In this document: piece by piece, positions 3,001 through 34,300 of the stretch
Layout of the letters: the number at the start of each line of letters is the position of its first letter
How positions within the stretch are numbered: the stretch's first letter is position 1
Source: Setophaga petechia
Lineage: Eukaryota; Chordata; Aves; Passeriformes; Parulidae
Length of the DNA stretch: 64,000 bases
Assembly (NCBI GenBank): GCA_024362935.1
Contig: JANCRA010000178.1
Coordinates: forward strand, 1-64,000
Direction of reading: 5' to 3'
The notes under the pieces: generated by a model
The model's input: only the letters and a program-made list of their open reading frames with translations
What the model was told of the DNA's origin: nothing
Database searches by the model: none
Translations under genes and position numbers: made by a program

Positions 3001-5051
3001 TTCACAAACTTGTGTTCCACACAGGTGGAAAAAATGTGGAGCCTGAGTGAAAGTCTTGTGGAGCTCCTGCAAGAAGATGACAGTGACATGATCAGGATGA
3101 CCATTCTTCTATTCAGATACTTGCTCCTGGATACTGGTGCCCCAATACCCACGCCCATCGCCCTGCAGCTGGCTGAGGCGCTCCTGCCACTCTTTGACCA
3201 TGTAAGGCTCTGTGCCCACAGCCACGGCCACTGGCTGCTGCCCGGACACTTGGTGCCCTGTGGAGGTGCAGGCCTGTGCCCTGTGGGGTCTGAAGCAGCT
3301 GATGCTGAGGTCTTTTGCCCTTCCTTTCATACAGGATGATAGCCAGGTGCAGCTAAGCTCCATGTGTGTCTTTCAAGAGATGCTGGACTTATTAACAGAA
3401 GATGGAAGAAAGGCCCTGAAGCCCCCCGTGCGCCAGAGCCTGGTACCACTCTACTTGCACTGCTGTGATGAGAATCAGATTGTTGCTGAGGTGAGGACTT
3501 GTGGCCACCTGCTGCTCCCTGGGAGGGGGCTGGGCTGCCTCCTGCCCTGGCACCTTGCAGGCTGCAGCCTCCTCCAGGCTGTGGCACTGGGATGCTCCTG
3601 TGCCCTGGCCTGTGGGGCCATCTGTGCCTCTCTGCTTCTCTCCAGGCCTCCCGGGAAACGCTGCATTGTGCAGCCAGGTTCCTAAAGAAGAGGAATCTTG
3701 AGCAAATGCTTCAGGTGGATCACACATGGAGGTTCGCTGAGAGCCTGGTAAGGACTGCCAAGAATCCTCAGCCTGGAGAAAGTCCCTGAGGGCGGTGCTC
3801 AGTGTGCGGGGCTGGCAGCTGTGCCCCTGCCCGCTGCTGCAGCCACAGGCCGCGCGGGCTCTTCTCCAGGCTCCTGCGGGTCCGAGCCGGGTGCCCATGG
3901 AGCCCCCGCCCGGCGGGGCTGCGGCCCGGCACCGCGGCTCCCCGGGCAGCAGCCGGCCCTCTGCCCCCTGCCCTCAGGAGCCCTTGGCCAGCGGCTGCTG
4001 GCCGCGCCTCGGGGCTGTGCGGCCAGGGGAGTTCGGGGCTGGGCGCAGGCAGCGCCCGGCCCAGGGGCGGAGCCCGCGTTAACCCTTCCCTCCGTCCGCT
4101 CTCCCCAGCTGGCAGACGACAGGAGCAGAGCGGCCGAGCACCTGCGCCGGGCCCTGCCCTACCTGGAGAGCCCACAGGAGCCCCTGCGAGAGGCGGCCGT
4201 CAGCTTCATGGGTGAGCCCCGAGCCCGTGCTCCCTCCCCGGCCCGGCCCGGCCCGGCCCGCGGCAGCTCGGCCCCAGCCCCGCCTGCTGCCCCGGCAGCG
4301 CCAGCCGGGCGCGGCGCCGTAGAGCCCTGTGGGAATCCTAAAAATCAGAGGGTTTTAAGAAAGGAAAAATCAGGCCTCAGACAGTAAGACAGTGAAATGC
4401 TAAAGCGTGCGCCAAGGGCCGGGCTGAGCCCTGCCGGGCCAGCAGCCCGTGTGGCCACAGCGCCGGCAGCGCCGCTGGCAGGGAGCTGTGCCGCCGGCGC
4501 CGTGACAGGCTCTGTGTTCACAGGCATGGCCGGGCGGCACCTGAGGGGGCAGCGGCAAGAGCTGCAGCTGATCTGCACCGGTGAGCGAGGGCAGCGGGCT
4601 GACCGCGGGGGCTGCCGGGGGGAGCTGCAAGCCCCGCCCCGGCTGCGGAGGGCTCTGCTCCCGGGGCCAGAGCACACTGAGATTTCAGGGCCACGTGGGC
4701 CATTCGTGGCCAGCAGCTTTGGGCTGATCCCCTTGCTCCCTGCTCCCTCCTGGCCGTGGCAAGAGCCGGCTGGCATGGCCCTTGCTGGGGGCTCTCCTCG
4801 GCTCCCCGCAGATGCAGGATCTGACCGTGATTCTGTTCTTGTCTCTTGCAGCCCTGGAACGCCTGACGGAGGACATGAGCAGTGCCGTGTGCGAGCTGGC
4901 AATTCAAACACTGCGTGTCCTCCGGCCAATACAGCGAGGGCCATATTCCATCTTCCAGAGGCTGCACGATCAGCTGCGCAGGGCATGGATCGCTCAGCCT
5001 TGTCTGTCGCGGCTCGGCTGGCTGCCCTGCCGAAGCTCTGTGGAGAGCTGA
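1..5051 (+). pseudogene. MROH-like gene copy 1, 5'-partial, frameshifted
   Basis: Exons by GT-AG splicing and by match to the complete copies: <1-66, 346-410, 520-669, 855-1003, 1305-1452, 1698-1885, 1975-2112, 2395-2508, 2679-2816, 3025-3201, 3335-3490, 3646-3747, 4109-4211, 4524-4580, 4852-5051 (TGA). The first 61 bases of exon 1, including the ATG, lie before the window. Exon 8 is 114 nt instead of the 115 nt seen in copies 4-7: its end reads TTCGTGTGGAG where copy 4 has TTCCTGGTGGAG. Splicing to exon 9 then shifts frame and meets TGA seven codons later, so the predicted product stops at residue 366 of a 670-residue design. The remaining exons keep their frame and splice sites, so the lesion looks recent. 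A truncated product cannot be excluded. Family assignment is as described for copy 7. Confidence 0.75.
115..160 (+). repeat. CCATG pentanucleotide microsatellite, intron 1 of copy 1
   Basis: Nine consecutive ATGCC units in intron 1, about 50 bp after the exon 1 donor. The same tract in other copies has 3 to 13 units. Confidence 0.95.
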
Positions 5052-22333: not shown

Positions 22334-25300
22334 ATGGAGCAGAGACCCCTGAGCGTGCCCAAGATGGCCTGGGGGGAGGAGGAGCAGGAGGAAGAAGGCC
22401 CTGGTGCTTCCCCAGCACAGGAAACTGAGGAGGTGGTGCCATTCCATGCACCGCAGAAGGGTGAGTGCCAGAGCTGCCAGAGCTGGAGCCTGCAGCCAAC
22501 TGGGCCCCATGCCATGCCATGCCATGCCATGCCATGCCATGCCATGCCATGCCATGCCATGCCATGCCATTTCATCCCCTGGGGAAATGCCCACGGACAG
22601 GCCGGAAGAGGGCCCGGGCAGACACCCCGCAGGGGCCGTGCTCCATCCCCTGGGCAATCCCGGGGCTCTCCCTGCCTGGGCAGCGCAGGGCTGGCCTGTG
22701 TTCTCCGGCCTCTCCCGCAGCCCCTCAGCTCTGGCTGCGCTCGCTCTTTGCCAGATGCAGCCCTGGAGCGCACACAGGAGCAGGAACCCAGCCGTGGCCG
22801 CTTCCGCAGCACAGCGCAGGTACCTGCAGCCACCCCCACCTGGGCTGGGCCTGCTGTCCCTGCTCAGCCCGGCACCGTGTGTGCAGCACTCCATGCAACA
22901 TCCCCGGCTTCCTGCCCTTCTCCTACAGTTTGTCTGCAAATTCATGAGGAGAATTCTGGAGGATGAAAACAGCACCATGGGCACAGGGCTCAGACCCTAC
23001 GCTCCCATCTTCCTAATTAAGACCAGCGCTGCCCTCCTGTGTATGCTTGTAGAGGAAGATTTTTACTATCCAACCCAAGTAAGCAGCCCGTGGGCAGGGC
23101 TTGATCCTCCCAGGAATTGCGTGGCCTCCCAAGCCACGCATGCTGGTTGCTGTGAACCTTTGAGGCCACTTGGCAGTGCAGTGGGAAGGGCAGCACTTCT
23201 CTGGGGAAGCTGGGAACATTGCTCCCTCTGGCAGCTTTCCAAGTCTCCCTGTGCCTTCTCCAGGTGCCCGCCATGGTGAGGTTCATCCACCAGTGGCTCG
23301 TGGCCAATGATTGTGCTGAGCACAGGCTGGACGAGGCCCTGCTGGATCTCACGGAAGCACAGCCAGATGACACAGTCATGGCGCTCCTGCGTGTGGCCCC
23401 GTCCTGTGACAGGTATGGGGCCCAGCTGCCCAGAGGGCTCCCCAGCCCATCACCCAGTAGAGCCTGGCCCAGGTATCTGACCAACAGAGACTTCCAGGGC
23501 CCTCTGGCTGCTGCCTTTCCCAGCCCTGGCACGTCAGCCCCTGAGCCTGCTGCTATGCTCCCTCCCTGCCCCTCAGGGCTCTGTCCCCACCGGCCTGGGC
23601 GGCCTGGCTGCTGCTGGCCAGGGCCAGTGGGCAGAGGCAGAACTGGCAGCCAGCTCAGCTCCCCCCGGTGCTGTGTCTGAGACCCGCCCTGAGACACAGC
23701 TGAGACAGAGTAAAAATCCTCCCTAAGTAAAAATCTCTTTTGAATTAAGTTAAAAGTCTAAAAAGGGTGAAAAGTCTGTAAGCCAAAGCTGAAGGGAAAA
23801 CTGCAAAACAAAAGATTATGGGCAGACTGATAAAGTAATCAGAGACATGAAGCAAGGCCAGAACAACCTGACCTAAGAATTCCTTTTGATAAAGAGAACT
23901 AGCAGCAAATGTCATGCTGAAGTCCACAAAAATGAATATGTATGAACCTATTGTGAAACTGTATGCATATGCATGTAGAGAAGGGATAAAAGGAGACCTG
24001 AAATTCTCGGGAGTACGCATGCCTTTTGGTACCTTTGTGGTACGCATGCGTCCAGCGCTGCAATAAATACATACCGGATCTTCGGCTCTTAACAACTTTT
24101 ACCAAGTTGTGTGAGTTTTTCTTTTTTCTCCGCAAAACATTCTGGCGAGCCGAGGCAGGAGAGGAGACACCTTCCGTCTCCGTCTCTGTCCCCGCAGGGG
24201 CAGGGGGGAACAGACGGACTCCTAGGGCGCTCCCAGGACTTTCCTGGAGGAGCCGCTTGTCTCAGCTTGCCTCCTGCGAGGACAGACAAGACCTGCTGGT
24301 GTGCGGAAGAAGATACGGTATGTATTGAGGGGCCCCGGGGCAGTAGAAGGGAGTAAATTCACTCAGAGACGTCTGAGTACAGCTGATAGAGCAGCCAGTT
24401 AGAGACGGGGGTTCATTGTTCCGATAGAGCGGCCGCAAGCGATCCTGAGGGTAAGTCGAATGAACCCGTGTGTGTTTGCGTGTGTGTGTGTGTGGTGTCC
24501 GGACACTGTATGACTGTATAGTTAAAGCATTGCCTGATCAGTACATTGTGTTTTGTGTTTATAATCGTGCAAGTGTGTAAGCGTATGGTGTAAAAAAGAG
24601 AGTATATTTACAGTGCAGTGCTCTGCCGTGCGGGGGGGGGAGTTTCCTACCCGCAACTGAGGGGGCCGAGCAAGCGCCGACTGGGACAAGCTGTGGGGGC
24701 GGAGAGCGCCCGGCAGAAAAAAACAAAGCAAGCAGAAAAGCGTGAGTGAATAAAGGTTGTAAATTGTGGTGTAAATTGTGCACGCTTTCACCGTGGCTAG
24801 ACGAACCCAAGGGGTTCCTCTGCCCCGGTGGTTTGGACTCGACCCCTGGGAGTTTGTGAATCCTGTGAATTACTGGATAGATAGAGGAGACGAACGAGTT
24901 TATTTAGAAGGGCTCTATCGGACTTCAGCTAGTGCTATAGTAGGTTTGGATTAAGAACAGCCTGCTGTAGAAGAATTAGAATTCCCTGTGGTAAACAGGA
25001 TAGCCTGCATTTGCGGGCGATTCCTGAGAACTCCTGGATCAAGAGGCTGGCACACTGCGTAGGTATTATTGCAGTGCAGTGTTTGTGAGAGACGCTGGTA
25101 TTGTTGTTCTAGTAAGCGTCAGAGCATATGCCGCGAGTGTGAAATAAAAGTTTCTGATCAAGCTGATTCAGAACCTAAGATCTTAAAACTTGTGTGTAGG
25201 AAATCACATCTGATACCTGCCGCCTGGAACTGTGTGTGGGAGGAGGACTGAGAAACTACTGTAGAGCTTTGTGAAAGAAGGTTCGGGTGGAAGCGAGACA

Positions 25301-28300
25301 AGCGAGACGGGGCAAGGAGAAGGAGATAATGGGAACTAACCAGAGTAAGGAAGTTCCCCGGGCAAGCCCCTTGGGGTGCATCTTGGCCCACTAGAAGGAA
25401 GTCACCAGCAAAGGGAGCTCTGAGAATAAAAAGGATCTAATCCAATATTGCACACGCTAGTGGCCACTGTACAGGTTGAGGGACGGAGCGAAGTGGCCAC
25501 CCACTGGAACTTTAGATTATAATACTTTGCTGCAGCTGATGTTGTTTTTAAGACGGGAAGGCCAATAGGATGAAGTTTCGTATGCTGACATGTTCTTTGT
25601 TTTAAGAAATCATCAAGAATGGCAAAAGGACTGTAGGATTAAACCGCCCTCAGATCCACTAGTCTTGGCCCTCGAAAAAGACAATAAAGCAAAAGGAAAA
25701 CAAATCAAACGTTGTTGTTCAGCATGTAGTATAAGACAACAGTGTATAAAATCAGATAAAGTGTATCATTCTGAGGAGCAAGAACGGGATGCATTTGAAT
25801 AAGTTAAAGCTGCTCCTAGAAAGAGGCAGGTGAAGCAAGCTAAGACTGAAACGGAAGAAGAAGATGAAGGGGAAGAGAACTTCCCCAAAAAGGAAGAAGA
25901 CTCAGGAGAGGAAGGCACATCCACTAGAACCCACCCCACCCCTGGTAGTCCAGTTGCATCTAGAACTAGGAAGCAAGCAGTGCTGCAAGCCCCTCTGCGA
26001 GAGGCAGTAGGGCCAGAAAGAAGGAAAGTAATGATTAAAGTGCCATTTACCACTCTTGATTTAGAGGCATAAGAAAGGATTGCTAGGAATTATCGTGTTG
26101 ATCCATTACTTACTGCCAAACGCCTACGATATGTTATCAAACAACACAATCCAGATTGGGCTGACATCCAGCTACTGCTGGATGCTTTCACTGAAACAGA
26201 AAAACAGCTGATCTTAAAAACAGCAAGGACTTTGGCAGAAGATTACTGTAAGGCCACACAGGAAGATGTAAAAGAACATTTCCCCCTCCAGGACCCTGAG
26301 TGGAATCCTAATATAACAGCAGAAGTAAAGAAATTAACAGACTATCAAGAGTAGATAGCAATAAGGGTGGAAAGAGCTATTCCAAAAACCATAAACTGGT
26401 CTGCCTTATATTCCCTTAAGCAGAGGCCTTCTGAGACCCCATCTGAATTTCTGGAGCGTTTAAGGGATACTATGCGTCGTCATACATCATTAGATCCGGA
26501 ATCTGAGATAGGGATAAATCAACTAGTTAATTCATTCCTGGGACAGTCTGCTGAGGATATTAGACGCAAGCTTCAGAAAATTCGGGGGCCAGATAGGAGA
26601 AATCTTGAAGTCTTGCTAGAAGAGGCCTGGAGAATATTTAGTAATCAGGAGGAAGAATACAGACGAAGAATGAAAAAGTTGGTAGCCGTAGTACAAGAAG
26701 AAAGGCAGAGAAAATACAACCAAGGACCACCGAGACAAGGACCACCTCGGTTAGGCCGGAACCAGTGTGCAATCTGCAAAAGAATTGGTCACTGGAAAGA
26801 TCAATGCCCAGAACGGAAACGGAGTGACCAACAAATGGCTGCACATGTACAAAACAACTGAAGGGGACCAGAGGATTCTGCCCCAGCGAATCCACTAGTT
26901 ATAACAATGAAGCTAGGAGAAGAAAAGAAAAAAGTAGAATTCTTAGTTGATACAAGAGCTACGTATTCAGTTTTAAATAAAGCTCTAGTACCTGTGGAAA
27001 ATGATTATGTTATAGTGCAAGGAGCAACTGGCCAGTCTGAAAAAGCATATTTTTGCAAACCTTTGAAGTATAAATTGAGAAAACAGTAGAGTATTCATAA
27101 ATTCTTGTATATGCCCAATTCGCCAAAGGCACTTTTAAGCAGAGATCTATTGGAGCAGTTACAAGCAACTATTATATTCAAAAATGGAAAAGTTACTCTA
27201 GAAGTGAATGATCAAAAGTACATAGAAGTATTAAGTTTAACCCTAACAGCTATTGAAATTAAAGAAGAAATTGATGAAGAAGTGTTGAGTCAAGTATTTC
27301 CTGAGGTATGAGCCTCTGATGTACCAAGTAAGGCTAAAAATGCCTCCCCTATAGTAATTAAACTTAAGGAAGAGGCACAACCAGTGAGAGTTAAACAGTA
27401 CCCTCTAAAAAAAGAAGACAGAGAAGGAATCAGCCCAATAATCGAAAATTTTCTGCAGTTAAGTTTACTGAAGGAATGCCAATCTGATTTCAATACTCCT
27501 ATTTTACCTGTTCGGAAACCTGATAGGTCATACCAGATAGTGCAAGACTTGAAAGCTGTCAACAAAATAACAGAAGATTTGTACCCAGTAGTAGCCAATC
27601 CGTATACTTTATTAACTTGTCTGACACCTGAGCTAACCTGGTTTACTGTGTTAGATTTAAAAGATGCCTTCTTTTGCCTCCCCATCCATGAAGCCAGCCA
27701 GAAAATTTTCGCATTCGAATAGGAAAGCCCTAAAAGTGGGCGCAAAACCCAGCTCACATAGTCCAGATTGCCTCAAGGCTACAAAAATGCCCCCACTCTG
27801 TTTAGAGAGCAACTTGCAAAAGATCTGGAGTCCTGAGAAGCCCCACAAGAAGAAGGAAGGCTTTTGCAGTATGTAGATGATCTTCTGGTAGCCACTCAAA
27901 CGAGAGAAGCGTGTGTAGCCTGGACGGTAAGCCTTTTGAATTTCCTAGGACTCCAAGGATACAGAGTATCAAAAAAAAAGGCACAAGTAATAAAACAGAA
28001 AGTGATCTACCTAGGGTACGAGGTGAGTGCTAAGCAACAGACTTTGGGGCAGGCTCGCAAGAAAGCCATTTGCCAAACCCCAAAACCCCAGACAATAAAA
28101 GAACTCCGAACCTTCTTAGGCATGGCAGGGTGGTGCCAGCTGTAAGTTTATAATTATAGACTGCTCGTCAGACCCCTCTATGCTCTTATTGACAATGGAA
28201 ATAAGGATCTCCAGTGGACAAAAGAAGCCACACAAGCCTTTCACCAGCTGAAGAGTGCCCTCATGTCAGCTCCAGCTTTGGGACTTCCGGATGTAAGTAA

Positions 28301-31300
28301 ACCATTCTTCCTATTTTCCCATGAAAGACAGGGAATTGCCCTAGGAATACTAGCTCAGGACTTAGGTCCATACCGAAGGGCAGTTGCTTACTTCTCTAAG
28401 CAACTAGATACAACAGCCAAAAGATAGCCAGAGTGCCTTAGAGCTGTAGCAGCAGTTGTGCTGAATATTCAAGAAGCACGTAAGTTTACCCTGAGACAAA
28501 AAATGACTGTGCTAGTGTCCCACACAGTGTCCACAGTACTAGAAGTAAAAAGTAGCCACTAGCTTTCACCACAGAGGTTCCTGAAATACCAGGCCATCAT
28601 GGTAGAGCAAGATGATGTAGAGATAGTAGTGACTAATATTGTCAACCCAGCTTCCTTTCTCAGTGGAAATCAAGGAGAAGCAGTATACCACGATTGTCTG
28701 GAGACCATTGAAGCTACTTACTCCAGCCGCCCAGACTTAAAGGACACTCCTTTGGACGATGCAGAGACCTAGTTCACTAACAAGAGCAGCTACGTTGCCA
28801 ATGGGAAGCGACATGCTGGGTATGCAGTGACCACCTGCAGAGAAGTAATCAAATCCAGACCCTTACCAACAGGTACCTCTGCACAGAAGGCTGAAATAAT
28901 TGCCCTGACCCGTGCCTTGGAAATGGCAAAAAGAAAGAGAATAAACATCTACACAGACTCGAAGTATGCATTTAGAGTTGTGCATGCACATGAAGCCATT
29001 TAGAAAGAGAAGAGACTGCTGACCTCACAGGGAAAGAACATCAAACATGCACAAGAGATAATCCAGCTGCTTGAAGCAGTCCAGCTGCCTGAGAAGGTAG
29101 CAATTATGCACATTAAAGCACACCAAAGAGTGAGCTCAGAATTAGAAGAAAGAAATGAGCTAGCGGATAGAGAGGCAAAAGAAGCAGCAAAAGGTGAGAT
29201 AACTACTGAAAGAGCCCTAATTCCAGATGGACAAATTTCCTTTGAAGGTAAGCCAGAATATAATAAGAAAGATAGAAAATTAATTGAAGATCAAAAAAGA
29301 ACGTATAACCAAGAAGGGTAAGCTACTATTGAAGAGAAGCTAGTGATCCCTTCCCATTTATTGTGGTCATTAGTAAAGGAAGAACACCAGAAAACACACT
29401 GAGGAATAGATGCCTTATACACCTATCTAATTGAGAGAATTGTTGCTAGAAATTTATATGCTACTATTGTTCAAGTGGCGCGACAGTGTGATCTTTGCCT
29501 CCAGACTAACCCCAAAAATACCCCCAAGCCAAAACTTAGTCAGATTGAGAGAGGCCATGGGCCCAGACAGCAGTGGCAAATTGACTTTTCAGAACTCCCA
29601 AGGAAAGCGGGGTATCGATATTTGCTAGTATTGACAGATACGTTTTCAGAGTAGCCAGAAGCATTCCCTACTAGAACTGTCAAAGCTAGAGAAGTGACCA
29701 AGGTATTATTGCAAGAAATAATACCACGCTTCGGAGTTCCAGCCACAATTTCCTCAGATAGAGGATCACATTTCATTTCTAAAATAGTGCAACAGATTAG
29801 TAGTCATCTGAGCATAGACTGAGAACTCCACACTCCATATCACCCCCAATCAAGCAGCCAGGTGGAGAAGATGAATCATTTGATTAAGCAGCAGATTATA
29901 AAGCTGGAGCAGGAAGTGAATCTACCCTAGCCCCAAGCTCTTCCACTAGCACTATTACGAATTCGAACTAAACCTCGAGCAAAAGAAAAGTTGAGCCCAT
30001 TTGAAATACTCTATAGGAGACCATATGGAATACAAAAAGGAATATCTACCCATATTAAAAAAGTAACACTGGCCACCTATATGGTAGCTTTAAGCAAACA
30101 GCTCAGAGAAATTGAGAAACACGTGGCTGGAACTCGGAGCAGAGAGTTAGATAGGCCAGTACATGACATACAACCTAGAGATTATGTATATGTTAAGTCT
30201 CTTGCAGAGAAGACTTTAGAACCACAGTGAGAAAGACCGTTCCAAGTGCTTCTCACCACCTTCACTGCAATCAAAATCAAAGAGCAGAGCGCCTGGATCC
30301 ATCACTCTCGAGTGAAGAAAGCCCAGAAGCCCATTGAAGAGTGATACCAGAAGGCAATGAACTGAGACTAAAACTTATTCAGGCAAAATGAGTATATTGC
30401 AGTCGAAGTTAGTTCATACCTAAGTTCACAGAATTGTTCTATATGTAATTATAATTGAAGCTTTAGAACTAGAGAGCACCTCTATTCAAAGCAATATTGG
30501 ATAGCCTTAGTCCCAGGCGTTTAATCAGTATACTGGATCCATGAAAGAACCTTCTGAAATAAAAGATTTAAACTTATCCACTGTAGTAATTCACGGAGAT
30601 CAAGTGTATAAAGAGCAAGAATGGCAAGAACAAGAACTGTGGACACTTCAAAGAATTAAAAGAGAAGAAATTAAAGTAGAGTGCCAGATAGTTAATGAGA
30701 CAGTTTATGAGAGACCAGATGAAATTAGTGTTGTAACTTCTCCCGGTGTATATGAACACCAAGAAATTTGTGATAACCTAAGTGAATCAGACTGTTAGTG
30801 TAATTTCACCTTGATACAGCCTATAGAAGTAACCTGCCTGTAAGCTCAAGATGTTATCAAGCTTTCATTTAAATTCAGAGTAGACGTTGCACCTTTTACA
30901 ACAGAACCTCATACAGCCTATACTAGGACACAAATAGCTAAGACACAGCCCAAACTTGAACCTGAAGTGTATGAAATAGGCCCCTATGTAGTGAGAAATG
31001 TGAGTGAGCAACAACTATTGTTCAATCCAGAATAGTCTCTCAAACGTGTTGAATTGCTAATGCAAGTTAACATCTCAGAAATCCAACCAGCCTGCTCCTC
31101 CTTCTTAAAAACATCCTTTGAAGGCTAGACAACATAGTTACAGAGACAAGTATATCTCAAGAGCAGAATAAAAAAAGATCTAACTAAGATATTAAAGACA
31201 AGATTAAGAGTTTTAAATAGAATTGATTCAGAAATACTGATGAATAAACTAGCCACCGCAGCAAGTAGCCTAACCAAATTGAAGCAGCCTTTACAGTCAT

Positions 31301-34300
31301 CTCTATTGGCATTAAGAACTAGCCAGTGGCAGATTTCAAAAGTACTGCCTAAATTAGAAATGGCCGAAGACCAAGACCACAAGTTAATAGTAGATGCACT
31401 TAGTACAGTTCAAGATAATGTGTCTTTAGCTTTCAGTTGTATACAAGCACAGTTATAGATGCAAGCAACAGCAACCTTGATCATACGAGAAGGGGGTGAA
31501 AGTAATTTTCCAACTGAAATTCAGAAAATTGTCTAGGATAATGCAATTGATTTTGAAAAAAAGTTTCAGTCCTGGTAGACTATAGTAAATTTCACCTATA
31601 ATCCTGCTTCTAATGTAGCCACTGCCTTTGTGCTTACCATACGTAATACCACTGTTTATGTTATTCATCCTATCATTGCATTAAGATTAAACCATAAAAA
31701 AACAATACTCTACCCTTCAGAACATAGAATGTGAGCACGAAAAGTGAATGAGAAGTAGCAAACAGTAAACTTAGAATCCTGCATTACTAAAGAACAGCTG
31801 AGATTCATCTGTGAAAGCAATACTATTAATGCCCAGGATGTGTGTTTAGACACTGAACAGAGTATTTGCCACTTTGAAGTTCATCCAGTCACTGACCACA
31901 AAACTGTGCTCGTATATACTGGAAAAAGATGTGTGTGCCTGAAAACTGCCTGTGCTACTGTAAAAATTGATAGCAATGATGTTATTTTGTCTAGTAGAAA
32001 TCATTCTAATTTCTGTATTTGTAACTTTGTAAATACTGTCGAGTGTGATTTTTCGTACTTAGCTCCAGTGACATCCCACCAGCTGATTAAAACCAATTAT
32101 ACAATGTATCACCAACTATCACCTACACCTATTAGAATAAGCCTTACATTAGTGAAACAATTGATTAAGCACCAAGACCTACTAGAAATCTTAAAAGAAA
32201 TCCAAAAAAATAGAAAGAAAACCTTAATTACTGTCCAACATGATACAAGAGAAATAACCAGAGTTCTACAAAGAGTAAAACAGAATGTAGATCATCACTA
32301 GTAAGATGTGATATTTGAGTAGTCGCCAACTGCAAATAGAATCTTTAACAAGCTGTGTCACCCCATTGTAGTTTTGCTAATATTAATTAGAATAAGTTTA
32401 AGATTATCTGTTATATTGCTAATTTAAAATTAGATAATACTACGACGAATAGCTGTGCTAACCTCTTTATCAAATGTACATAGTAAAGCATTAAGAGACA
32501 CTTATTACCGTAAGAGTTTGCATTAAGTAAAAGAATTTACTTATTTTCTAGGAAAGGGGGGAATGAGACAGAGTAAAAATCCTCCCCAAGTAAAAATCCC
32601 TTTTGAATTAAGTTAAAAGTCTAAAAAGGGTGAAAAGTCTGTAAGCCAAAGCTGAAGGGAAAACTGCAAAACAAAAGATTATGGGCAGACTGATAAAGTA
32701 ATCAGAGACATGAAGCAAGGCCAGAACAACCTGACCTAAGAATTCCTTTTGATAAAGAGAACTAGCAGTAAATGTCATGCTGAAGTCCACAAAAATGAAT
32801 ATGTATGAACCTATTGTGAAACTGTATGCATATGCATGTAGAGAAGGGATAAAAGGAGACCTGAAATTCTCGGGAGTACGCATGCCTTTTGGTACCTTTG
32901 TGGTACGCATGCGTCCAGCGCTGCAATAAATACATACCGGATCTTCGGCTCTTAACAACTTTTACCAAGTTGTGTGAGTTTTTCTTTTTTCTCCGCAAAA
33001 CACAGCTCTGACCCCACAGAGCTGCCATGGCCATGTGGAAGACCATCATGGGCTCAGCCAGGACTGCGGAGCTGGCACAGATGATCCTCCTGGATGTGCT
33101 GGGGAGCTGGCCAGAGCGCAGCACGTGCACCTCCGATGGGGACAAAACGGGTGTCTTTGCCCTGGCTGTGAGTTTCTGCAACGAGCCTTTGCTGGCCCCA
33201 AGGCCGCCTTTCCAGCAGCTCTCCATCCTCCTTCCCCCACGGCATCTCCCTGCCTCAGGCGCTGGCCTGAAATCTGGCCCGGGGGCAGCTTCAGGCCCAC
33301 CAGGCCGTGTGCTCCCCCTGCCTCTCTCCGGGCCTCTCCCTGCCACGCTCGCGCCCTGCCACACGGACACCTGGGCACTGAGCGCTGTCTCGGGGGGCTT
33401 TGTCCTTTGCAGGCAACCGTGGTGATGTGGAAGATCCTCCAGGTGCCCTGTCTGCCACGGATACTGAAGGTGTATTTCCCCCGCCTCTTTGTGCATCTGC
33501 TTTTCCAAGTGTTCTTCAGCACTCTGCATATGCCAGAGGAGGTCGATACCTTCTGGAAGGGATGCCAGGAAGAGCACGGCCTTGCCACCAGCCCCAACAG
33601 GTGCTCCATCCCACTCCTCCTGTCCCTGCCACGTGGCCTGCCAAGGAGCCAGTGCTGCCAGCCTGACCTGGGCTTTGCTGTGCACACAGCTTTGCAGTGC
33701 GCACCCTGAAGTCCCTGCTGTGCCTTCTGCGCTATGAGGATGTGGTGGTGGCAATGGAACGCAGGTGTGGCTGGGACACGCTGCTCTCTCCTGACACCCA
33801 CCACTTTGCCGTGGCTCTGCTGGCCAGGTGAGACCCCCTTCTCCCCACTGCCTCTGACATTTGTGCTCTGTGCCCAGGTGTCCCACACAAAGTCCCCGTG
33901 CTCATGAGCCAGAGGGCCTTGTCACTGAGGGAAGGCCAAGCACACTGGAAAAGGCTGGCAGAGGAGGGAGGCCATGAGCAACCAACTCCCAAATGGCCCA
34001 AGGTCCCCTTGCTGGAAGGCTGGTGGGGAAACATGAGAACTCTGTGAGTCACTCCTGGGAGAGGTTTGCCCCACTGGCTCAGGGACTTGTTTTCTTTTTC
34101 CTCTCCTCAGGATAATTTCCCATTCAGCCATACACTTTTGTTCCGGGATTGCATTCTACCTGCTCGCCCTGCTCAAAGAAGAGATGCCATACTGGGATTT
34201 CCCTGCCCTGGCATTCCTGGTGGAGGTGAGCCTCAAGGCCAGCGCTGCCTGCCTGAGCTGCCTCCCAGCTCTCTGCCCTCTCGTAGGCACAGCTGCCAGG

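Follow-up and report, generated by a model that had tools for sequence, protein, structure and literature searches.

According to the sources cited here, the strongest editing signals in LTR elements come from birds, above all from oscine passerines and the zebra finch (PMC6497032, PMC6523648). Where APOBEC3 (A3) enzymes act, the editing gradients described reach their maximum immediately 5' of the polypurine tract, PPT (PMC6395001), and hypermutated HIV is described as keeping the G runs of its PPT intact (PMC3909203); the "gradient" treated in PMC2657108 is one of DNA versus RNA and does not run along the genome. Published work already documents such editing in bird LTR elements, and the provirus presented below adds one clean case.

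The window, i.e. the whole stretch of DNA that was analysed, comprises 64,000 nt of Setophaga petechia contig JANCRA010000178.1 (positions 1 to 64,000, forward strand) and contains a full-length provirus at 23701-33002. We regard it as nearly certain that this provirus was edited at GG by a host AID/APOBEC-family deaminase during reverse transcription, and that its edits are private to the insertion. The features are the following:

23697..23700, no strand: left target site duplication CAGC, a 4-bp match of both flanks
23701..24139, + strand: 5' LTR, TG...CA, 439 bp, 436/439 identity with the 3' LTR
24143..24160, + strand: putative primer binding site by sequence, starting TGGCGAGCC
24161..25328, + strand: leader, G-rich and lightly edited (GG/(GG+AG) 0.47 over 24140-25328)
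25329..26861, + strand: gag frame with stops and a Gag_p30 match, ending at the likely native TGA 26859
26862..30344, + strand: pro-pol with stops, same frame as gag, with RVP, RVT_1 and RNase H matches
30388..32427, + strand: env frame with 16 internal stops, start set by inspection
31922..32550, + strand: stretch without any GG start, directly before the PPT (GG at 31836 and 31921, next from 32551)
32550..32563, + strand: polypurine tract by sequence, AGGAAAGGGGGGAA, intact
32564..33002, + strand: 3' LTR, without net editing compared to sister copies at the DNA level
33003..33006, no strand: right target site duplication CAGC, a 4-bp match of both flanks

The insertion and its virus class

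The provirus is a recent single insertion. Its LTRs are 99.3% identical, all three differences being C/T, and it occupies one unit in a tandem array of the host, six other units of which carry the empty site. Seven host frames near the junction, which we take to resemble maestro-heat-like genes, were scanned and gave no credible Pfam match (one match, E 0.058). The primer binding site TGGCGAGCC is presumably tRNA-Arg-like.

The traits of a class I element are present: Gag_p30, a common frame for gag and pro-pol that are separated by a stop, an MLV-like reverse transcriptase (RT), the 4-bp target duplication and the TG...CA LTRs. Among solved structures the RT piece finds its best matches in the MLV RT group (E 2e-40), and the integrase (rve) match of pro-pol scores below the cut-off. 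For a gammaretroviral Env we would assume TLV_coat to be the expected Pfam family. The one env piece scanned (C-terminal half) had no Pfam match, and six relatives of env, all covering the C-terminal half, had no match to a retroviral Env, so the filing as gammaretrovirus-like is based on gag-pol only. A PDB profile search with the env relatives yielded three hits, none of them credible; the best (E 3.6e-5) was to PCNA, and no stretch passed by itself. AlphaFold modelled one env relative poorly (pLDDT 54). Neither the viral-contig scans nor the one genome-contig scan revealed relatives.

Differences from sister copies and the candidate enzymes

A Hypermut-style test was run at the DNA level against sister copies of the same genome. 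The earlier note had named three outcomes that would speak against GG-context hypermutation, namely no excess of G-to-A over C-to-T, no enrichment of GG over GC and GT, and closest relatives with the same stops; none of them was seen. Pooled over the copies there are 4367 copy-G/window-A differences compared to 490 copy-C/window-T, further 1373 copy-A/window-G, 520 copy-T/window-C and 555 transversions, whereby one must keep in mind that pairwise cells are not independent and that the chosen copies are the window's closest matches. The window carries A at 3212/7674 copy GG sites (edited fraction 0.42), at 851/11367 GA sites (0.075), at 145/6257 GC sites (0.023) and at 155/7553 GT sites (0.021). 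As GA lies above GC and GT (0.02), the preference may be looser, or a second enzyme may have taken part. Compared to one single copy over 3597 bp, 147 of the 174 differences are copy-G/window-A, no indels occur, and A stands in the window at 127/256 of the copy GG sites.

For the leader and early gag, 17 to 19 of 20 fetched copies were aligned; most of pol was compared with 6 or 7 copies, 29000-29600 with 38, and env and LTR with 26 to 29 of 29. The comparison covers the provirus outside 26051-27519. The copies were chosen as the top matches to a query that is itself edited, with 40 scored out of 178 and out of 269 candidates, and show about 96-97% identity over the 601-base query. The union-site measure uses 38 sister copies from 40 matches scored, one of which is the window, with duplicates kept; it is not free of background, with CC to CT at 157/1520 for the integrase piece.

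A PF08210 profile search of the host genome, exon by exon, returned six matches in four genes, which we read as APOBEC2, AID and two genes of APOBEC1 type. By this one search, whose reach is limited, neither APOBEC3 nor APOBEC4 was found. The two APOBEC1-type genes are 38% identical to each other and adjoin AID. That AID, and not an enzyme of APOBEC1 type, edited the cDNA is improbable: a gene in the same cluster does have AID as its best solved-structure match, but AID is described as preferring WRC (PMC4864454), by which the plus-strand G would be followed by C or T, and GC and GT are the least edited contexts. The editor is more probably one of the host's two APOBEC1-type genes.

Sharing of edits and the broken reading frames

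The closest copies do not carry the same set of stops. At 35 of the 38 stops tallied, with duplicates removed in env only, the copies have TGG in 436/607 cells, a stop in 168 and something else in 3. At 31/35 sites the majority of copies have TGG; at 3/35 sites the majority have a stop, and these we read as shared hotspots. These three sites, and three groups of copies with nearly all edits in common, would agree with stops inherited from an edited lineage that spread in trans via helper proteins, its old edits being common to the copies. Two of the groups, however, have a common 3' flank and the third is 98.7-99.2% identical over 3.7 kb, past its truncated LTR, so that each group consists of copies duplicated from one insertion. 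Copies at different insertions share edits at the level that hotspots predict: of the 231 pairs formed by edited copies, 12 belong to the same insertion and reach z 3.1-6.0, the 219 others reach at most 1.5 and the window 1.1 in its best pair (flanks from 27 of 30 copies, window included). Inheritance of the stops is thus very unlikely, and beyond hotspots the edits are private to each insertion. At an arbitrary cut of 0.20, 16/23 insertions sampled in env are edited (one lies exactly on the cut, and 13/23 reach 0.29), which is not a genome-wide rate as the sample is biased to the edited query.

The gag-pol frame 25329-30344 contains 24 stops (13 TAG, 7 TGA, 4 TAA), as had been counted before, compared to 141 and 127 in the remaining two forward frames. 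G comes next after 4/4 TAA and 5/7 TGA. The earlier claim that each of these can stem from TGG stands; 22/24 stops overall fit TGG edited in GG context. The misfit TGA+A at 26859 lies after the zinc-knuckle piece and before the protease piece, where gag usually ends in class I elements, and TGA+T at 30342 is the end of pol. Since both misfits sit where gag and pol should end, 22/22 of the remaining stops fit. In-frame TAA or TGA is followed by G in 13/15 cases, compared to 81/309 in any frame (p about 2e-6). For env the earlier note gave 18 internal stops; we count 16 (30421 to 32320), all of them compatible with GG, as 18 would need TAA 32425 and TAG 32431, which are probably at or past the native end.

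The position of the stops is a further argument. Trp is the commonest residue of the relatives at 21/22 covered stops, as expected from the earlier observation that many stops sit at Trp positions, and the one exception is the presumed native gag stop; the reported Arg in place of Gly in the protease motif (26955) was also seen by inspection. Judged by protein relatives, the first G of Trp and Gly codons is edited in 47/87 cases and Pro CC in 2/59. The three nearest of 14 tallied relatives show 23 residue differences (initial Met excluded), of which 22 are of G>A type in either copy, one is multi-step and none is C/T or a transversion. No frameshift appears in the protein-relative alignments, which stay in one frame (165 in gag-pol, 43 in env) and cover the regions where relatives exist, parts of pol and env being without any. 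Over 27.5-31.1 kb a single pairwise indel occurs among six aligned copies; indels are more frequent in the leader and the LTR and few elsewhere.

Neutral decay after insertion, including methyl-CpG loss, would agree with the CpG depletion of the provirus, which the host flank shows likewise. As the cause of the broken frames it can practically be set aside: with 436/439 identical LTR positions about 0.3 Trp-to-stop changes are expected compared to 38 seen, C-to-T does not equal G-to-A, indels are nearly missing over the same 27.5-31.1 kb, and strand asymmetry and GG context are found. GG/(GG+AG) falls along the provirus and G declines before A, C and T too, so composition alone is no proof of editing, but a GG-poor family trait without editing is hardly credible when sister copies retain GG at about half of the window-A sites and the Trp and Gly codons of relatives agree with editing.

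Position of the edits and relation to known systems

Behind the primer site the edited fraction is 0.16-0.17, and from there it climbs, unevenly, to 0.95 ahead of the PPT (successive bins.17.16.26.25.43.53.35.47.46.47.51.70.74.65.74.95). The leader has A at 0.16-0.26 of copy GG sites, and env is the most heavily edited part of the provirus. The rise is non-monotonic, with dips at 28001-28500 and 31401-31800, and at the protein level the first gag bin (6/11 edited) runs counter to a smooth increase. At the PPT, whose G6 is intact, editing stops abruptly; the 3' LTR has no excess (window A at copy GG 0.26/0.21, copy A at window GG 0.24/0.23). The PPT pattern is matched at 17/29 sister loci: 15 agree with the window, another carries an additional G and the last has a changed G run. 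The rise to the PPT, its sparing and the loss in the LTR are the traces that deamination of the minus strand leaves during reverse transcription. That a single event during this process struck the element, as the earlier note proposed, is supported by the rise, its abrupt end and the private edits.

We propose that a virus of this family was reverse transcribed alongside a host AID/APOBEC-family cytidine deaminase preferring CC. The enzyme would act on the single-stranded minus-strand cDNA and thereby change G to A in GG on the plus strand, most strongly just 5' of the PPT, where the minus strand may stay single-stranded longest, most weakly behind the primer site, and would spare the RNA-primed PPT itself. 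The edited cDNA would then have integrated into one unit of the host array, dead on arrival. A more far-reaching reading, which we consider possible without leaning towards it, is that in this lineage one of the two diverged APOBEC1-type genes is a dedicated germline restriction factor against retroviruses, which independently gained an APOBEC3G-like CC specificity and damaged most germline insertions of one young ERV family at birth.

The provirus and its sisters are naturally produced hypermutants, each from a single round, in a genome without detected APOBEC3, and every insertion records one deaminase exposure, including how intense it was, in which context it acted and how it varied with position. 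It can now be tested which bird-type deaminase fills the role of primate APOBEC3G, and what share of germline insertions is disabled.

G-to-A hypermutated LTR elements of birds were described by Knisbacher and Levanon 2016, as summarised in PMC6497032 and PMC6523648. Compared to that work as the summaries present it, the present case consists of one full-length provirus with empty sites, the rise to and sparing of the PPT, and a test for private edits. With the HIV-1 hypermutants of APOBEC3G, as described in PMC3909203 and PMC2657108, it shares the GG context and the spared G runs of the polypurine tract. GGGG is described as disfavoured there, and here the only G run of at least four left in env is one G5. 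The candidate enzymes differ, being of APOBEC1 type in a genome in which one family search found no APOBEC3. The endogenous MLV and MMTV proviruses edited by mouse APOBEC3 (PMC2041998, PMC12548423) are reported to carry G-to-A damage like the one seen here, and the editing gradient of A3 is reported to peak 5' of the PPT (PMC6395001), as it does in this provirus, in another class of host and presumably by another enzyme.

The provirus and its host site

The element under study lies within a host tandem array as follows:

23701-33002: provirus, inside a single array unit, the units being about 7.5-8.2 kb long

Its two LTRs (439 bp) are identical at 436 of 439 positions, all three differences being C/T, and its target duplication is CAGC, with the empty site present in six other array units within the window. 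Pfam assigns the pieces between the stops to Gag_p30, retroviral protease, reverse transcriptase and RNase H above its cut-off and to integrase below it, and the nearest solved structures to the reverse transcriptase piece are MLV reverse transcriptases. Protein relatives with a named source come from birds (Turdus, Hirundo, Grus, Lonchura, Corvus and others); Klebsiella, Acinetobacter, a turtle and a mole-rat are among the other labels. For Env (30388-32427) no recognised retroviral Env match was obtained in Pfam with one window piece and six of the protein relatives P0044-P0085, nor in a PDB profile search, despite many Env relatives, and the quality of the AlphaFold model was too poor for use.

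The host array extends over window positions 1-64000 in units of about 7.5 and 8.2 kb, which are 97-100% identical in the compared blocks. Its exons, which may resemble maestro-heat-like genes, have no credible Pfam match. Judged by eye, the splice acceptor-like CCACAG of a host exon lies 17 bases downstream of the 3' LTR end (33003-33020), and the insertion has probably parted the branch region from the exon of this unit.

Stop codons and substitutions relative to sister copies

The earlier note had attributed the inactivation of the provirus to G-to-A hypermutation in GG context. We counted the 24 stops it gave for the gag-pol frame, of which 22 are compatible with an edited TGG, the other two standing where gag and pol would be expected to end. 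In env the type of change was as claimed, the number was not: instead of 18 internal stops 16 were found, all compatible with TGG edited in GG context. The placement of many stops at Trp positions of class I pol proteins is borne out by the protein relatives, in which Trp is the commonest residue at 21 of 22 covered stops; the exception is the presumed native gag stop. Protein databases hold open reading frames, in which stops cannot appear, and the test at the DNA level is therefore the stronger one.

For this test the host genome (1.22 Gb, 687 contigs) was searched for copies of the same family; at least 39 other matches were scored for one piece (identity 89-97%) and at least 39 for another (92-97%). 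Copies were aligned pairwise with the window in short pieces, and the differences pooled. Among the matches listed, 4367 differences have G in the copy and A in the window and 1373 the reverse; a further 490 are copy-C/window-T, 520 are copy-T/window-C, and 555 are transversions. All of these are pairwise cells that are not independent because the copies share ancestry. The base 3' of the changed G agrees with the claim as well: among the same matches, the window reads A at 3212 of 7674 copy GG sites, at 851 of 11367 GA sites, and at only 145 of 6257 GC and 155 of 7553 GT sites. One copy differs from the window at 174 positions in 3597 bp, 147 of which are copy-G/window-A (127 in GG), and a second copy carries private G-to-A changes in similar number on both sides (82 in the copy, 79 in the window).

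Independent editing and candidate deaminases

The closest relatives do not generally carry the same stops. For 35 of the 38 window stop sites there are 607 cells in the copies: 436 have TGG, 168 a stop and 3 another codon. Counting the window, env pieces from 30 copies sort into 23 insertions, namely 22 distinct 3' flanks from 27 copies and one three-copy group (98.7-99.2% identity across 3.7 kb). With an arbitrary cut of 0.20 of GG sites reading A, 16 of the 23 insertions are edited, 13 reach at least 0.29 and the five lowest show 0.06-0.11. In the integrase piece, among the matches listed (window included, duplicates kept), 17 of 39 copies show 0.08-0.15 and 22 show 0.21-0.56, the CC control being 0.03-0.18. 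These shares should not be read as rates for the whole genome, the copies being the top matches to a query that is itself edited.

The 22 env copies above 0.2 form 231 pairs, which were scored against a site-hotspot prediction. The 12 same-insertion pairs share edits far beyond this prediction (z 3.1-6.0), whereas the 219 different-insertion pairs do not (highest z 1.5, best for the window 1.1). The family was therefore edited again and again, every insertion on its own.

Three insertions were met three to four times each on several contigs (loci L010/L011/L012/L015, L019/L021/L023 and L018/L020/L022), with common edits and a common flank within each group; they are either segmental duplicates or separately assembled haplotypes.

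A PF08210 search of the whole host genome gave six matches in four genes, with no APOBEC3 among them by this model. The gene on contig C92 has APOBEC2 as top Pfam match, and the other three are clustered:

C9:21872765-21899335 (L096-L098): AID and two APOBEC1-type genes within 27 kb

The AID gene has AID as best solved-structure match (E 5.5e-53), the other two APOBEC-1 (E 6e-36 and 9e-19). In Pfam, APOBEC4_like (2e-48) nearly equals APOBEC1 (2e-47) for the first of these, and SNAD4 (6e-36) precedes APOBEC1 (3e-23) for the second. We use the label "APOBEC1-type" because of these matches, their mutual identity of 38% and the HxE...PCxxC motif kept in both. The two APOBEC1-type genes are candidate editors, and their specificities may differ; we infer that one of them edited the window's provirus. 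APOBEC1 homologues are recorded in lizard and zebra finch, the lizard one with DNA mutator activity, as stated in PMC3880073.

Position along the element and known systems

Copy GG sites read A in the window at fractions of 0.17, 0.16, 0.26 and 0.25 in the successive bins between primer site and early gag. The following gag bin has 0.43, pol 0.35-0.53, most of env 0.65-0.74, and the final 345 bases 5' of the polypurine tract (PPT) 0.95 (207/217). The climb is uneven, with dips within pol and env, and the LTR values (0.26, 0.21) are not above the reverse direction there (0.24, 0.23). Along the element GG/(GG+AG) drops from 0.49 to 0.03, CC/(CC+CT) stays at 0.37-0.55, and 31922-32550 holds zero GG starts; as G also declines before A, C and T, though less than before G, composition alone is not proof of editing. 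Edited first Gs in Trp and Gly codons number 19 of 51 in gag-pol versus 28 of 36 in env (p 2e-4), with 6 of 11 in the first gag bin speaking against a simple rise.

For APOBEC3 gradients, PMC6395001 places the maximum just 5' of the PPT, and in hypermutated HIV the G runs of the PPT stay intact according to PMC3909203; the six Gs of the PPT are intact in the window's element. Among 17 sister copies, one (L016) has G-to-A changes inside this normally protected G run.

Among the titles and abstract beginnings listed, we recognised no study that resolves positional editing together with private edits in a provirus of a bird, which is weak evidence of absence. Knisbacher and Levanon, as summarised in PMC6497032 and PMC6523648, found LTR-element editing among vertebrates to be strongest in birds, and within birds in oscine passerines and zebra finch. 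As such editing is already published, the window's provirus is a further case and not the first.
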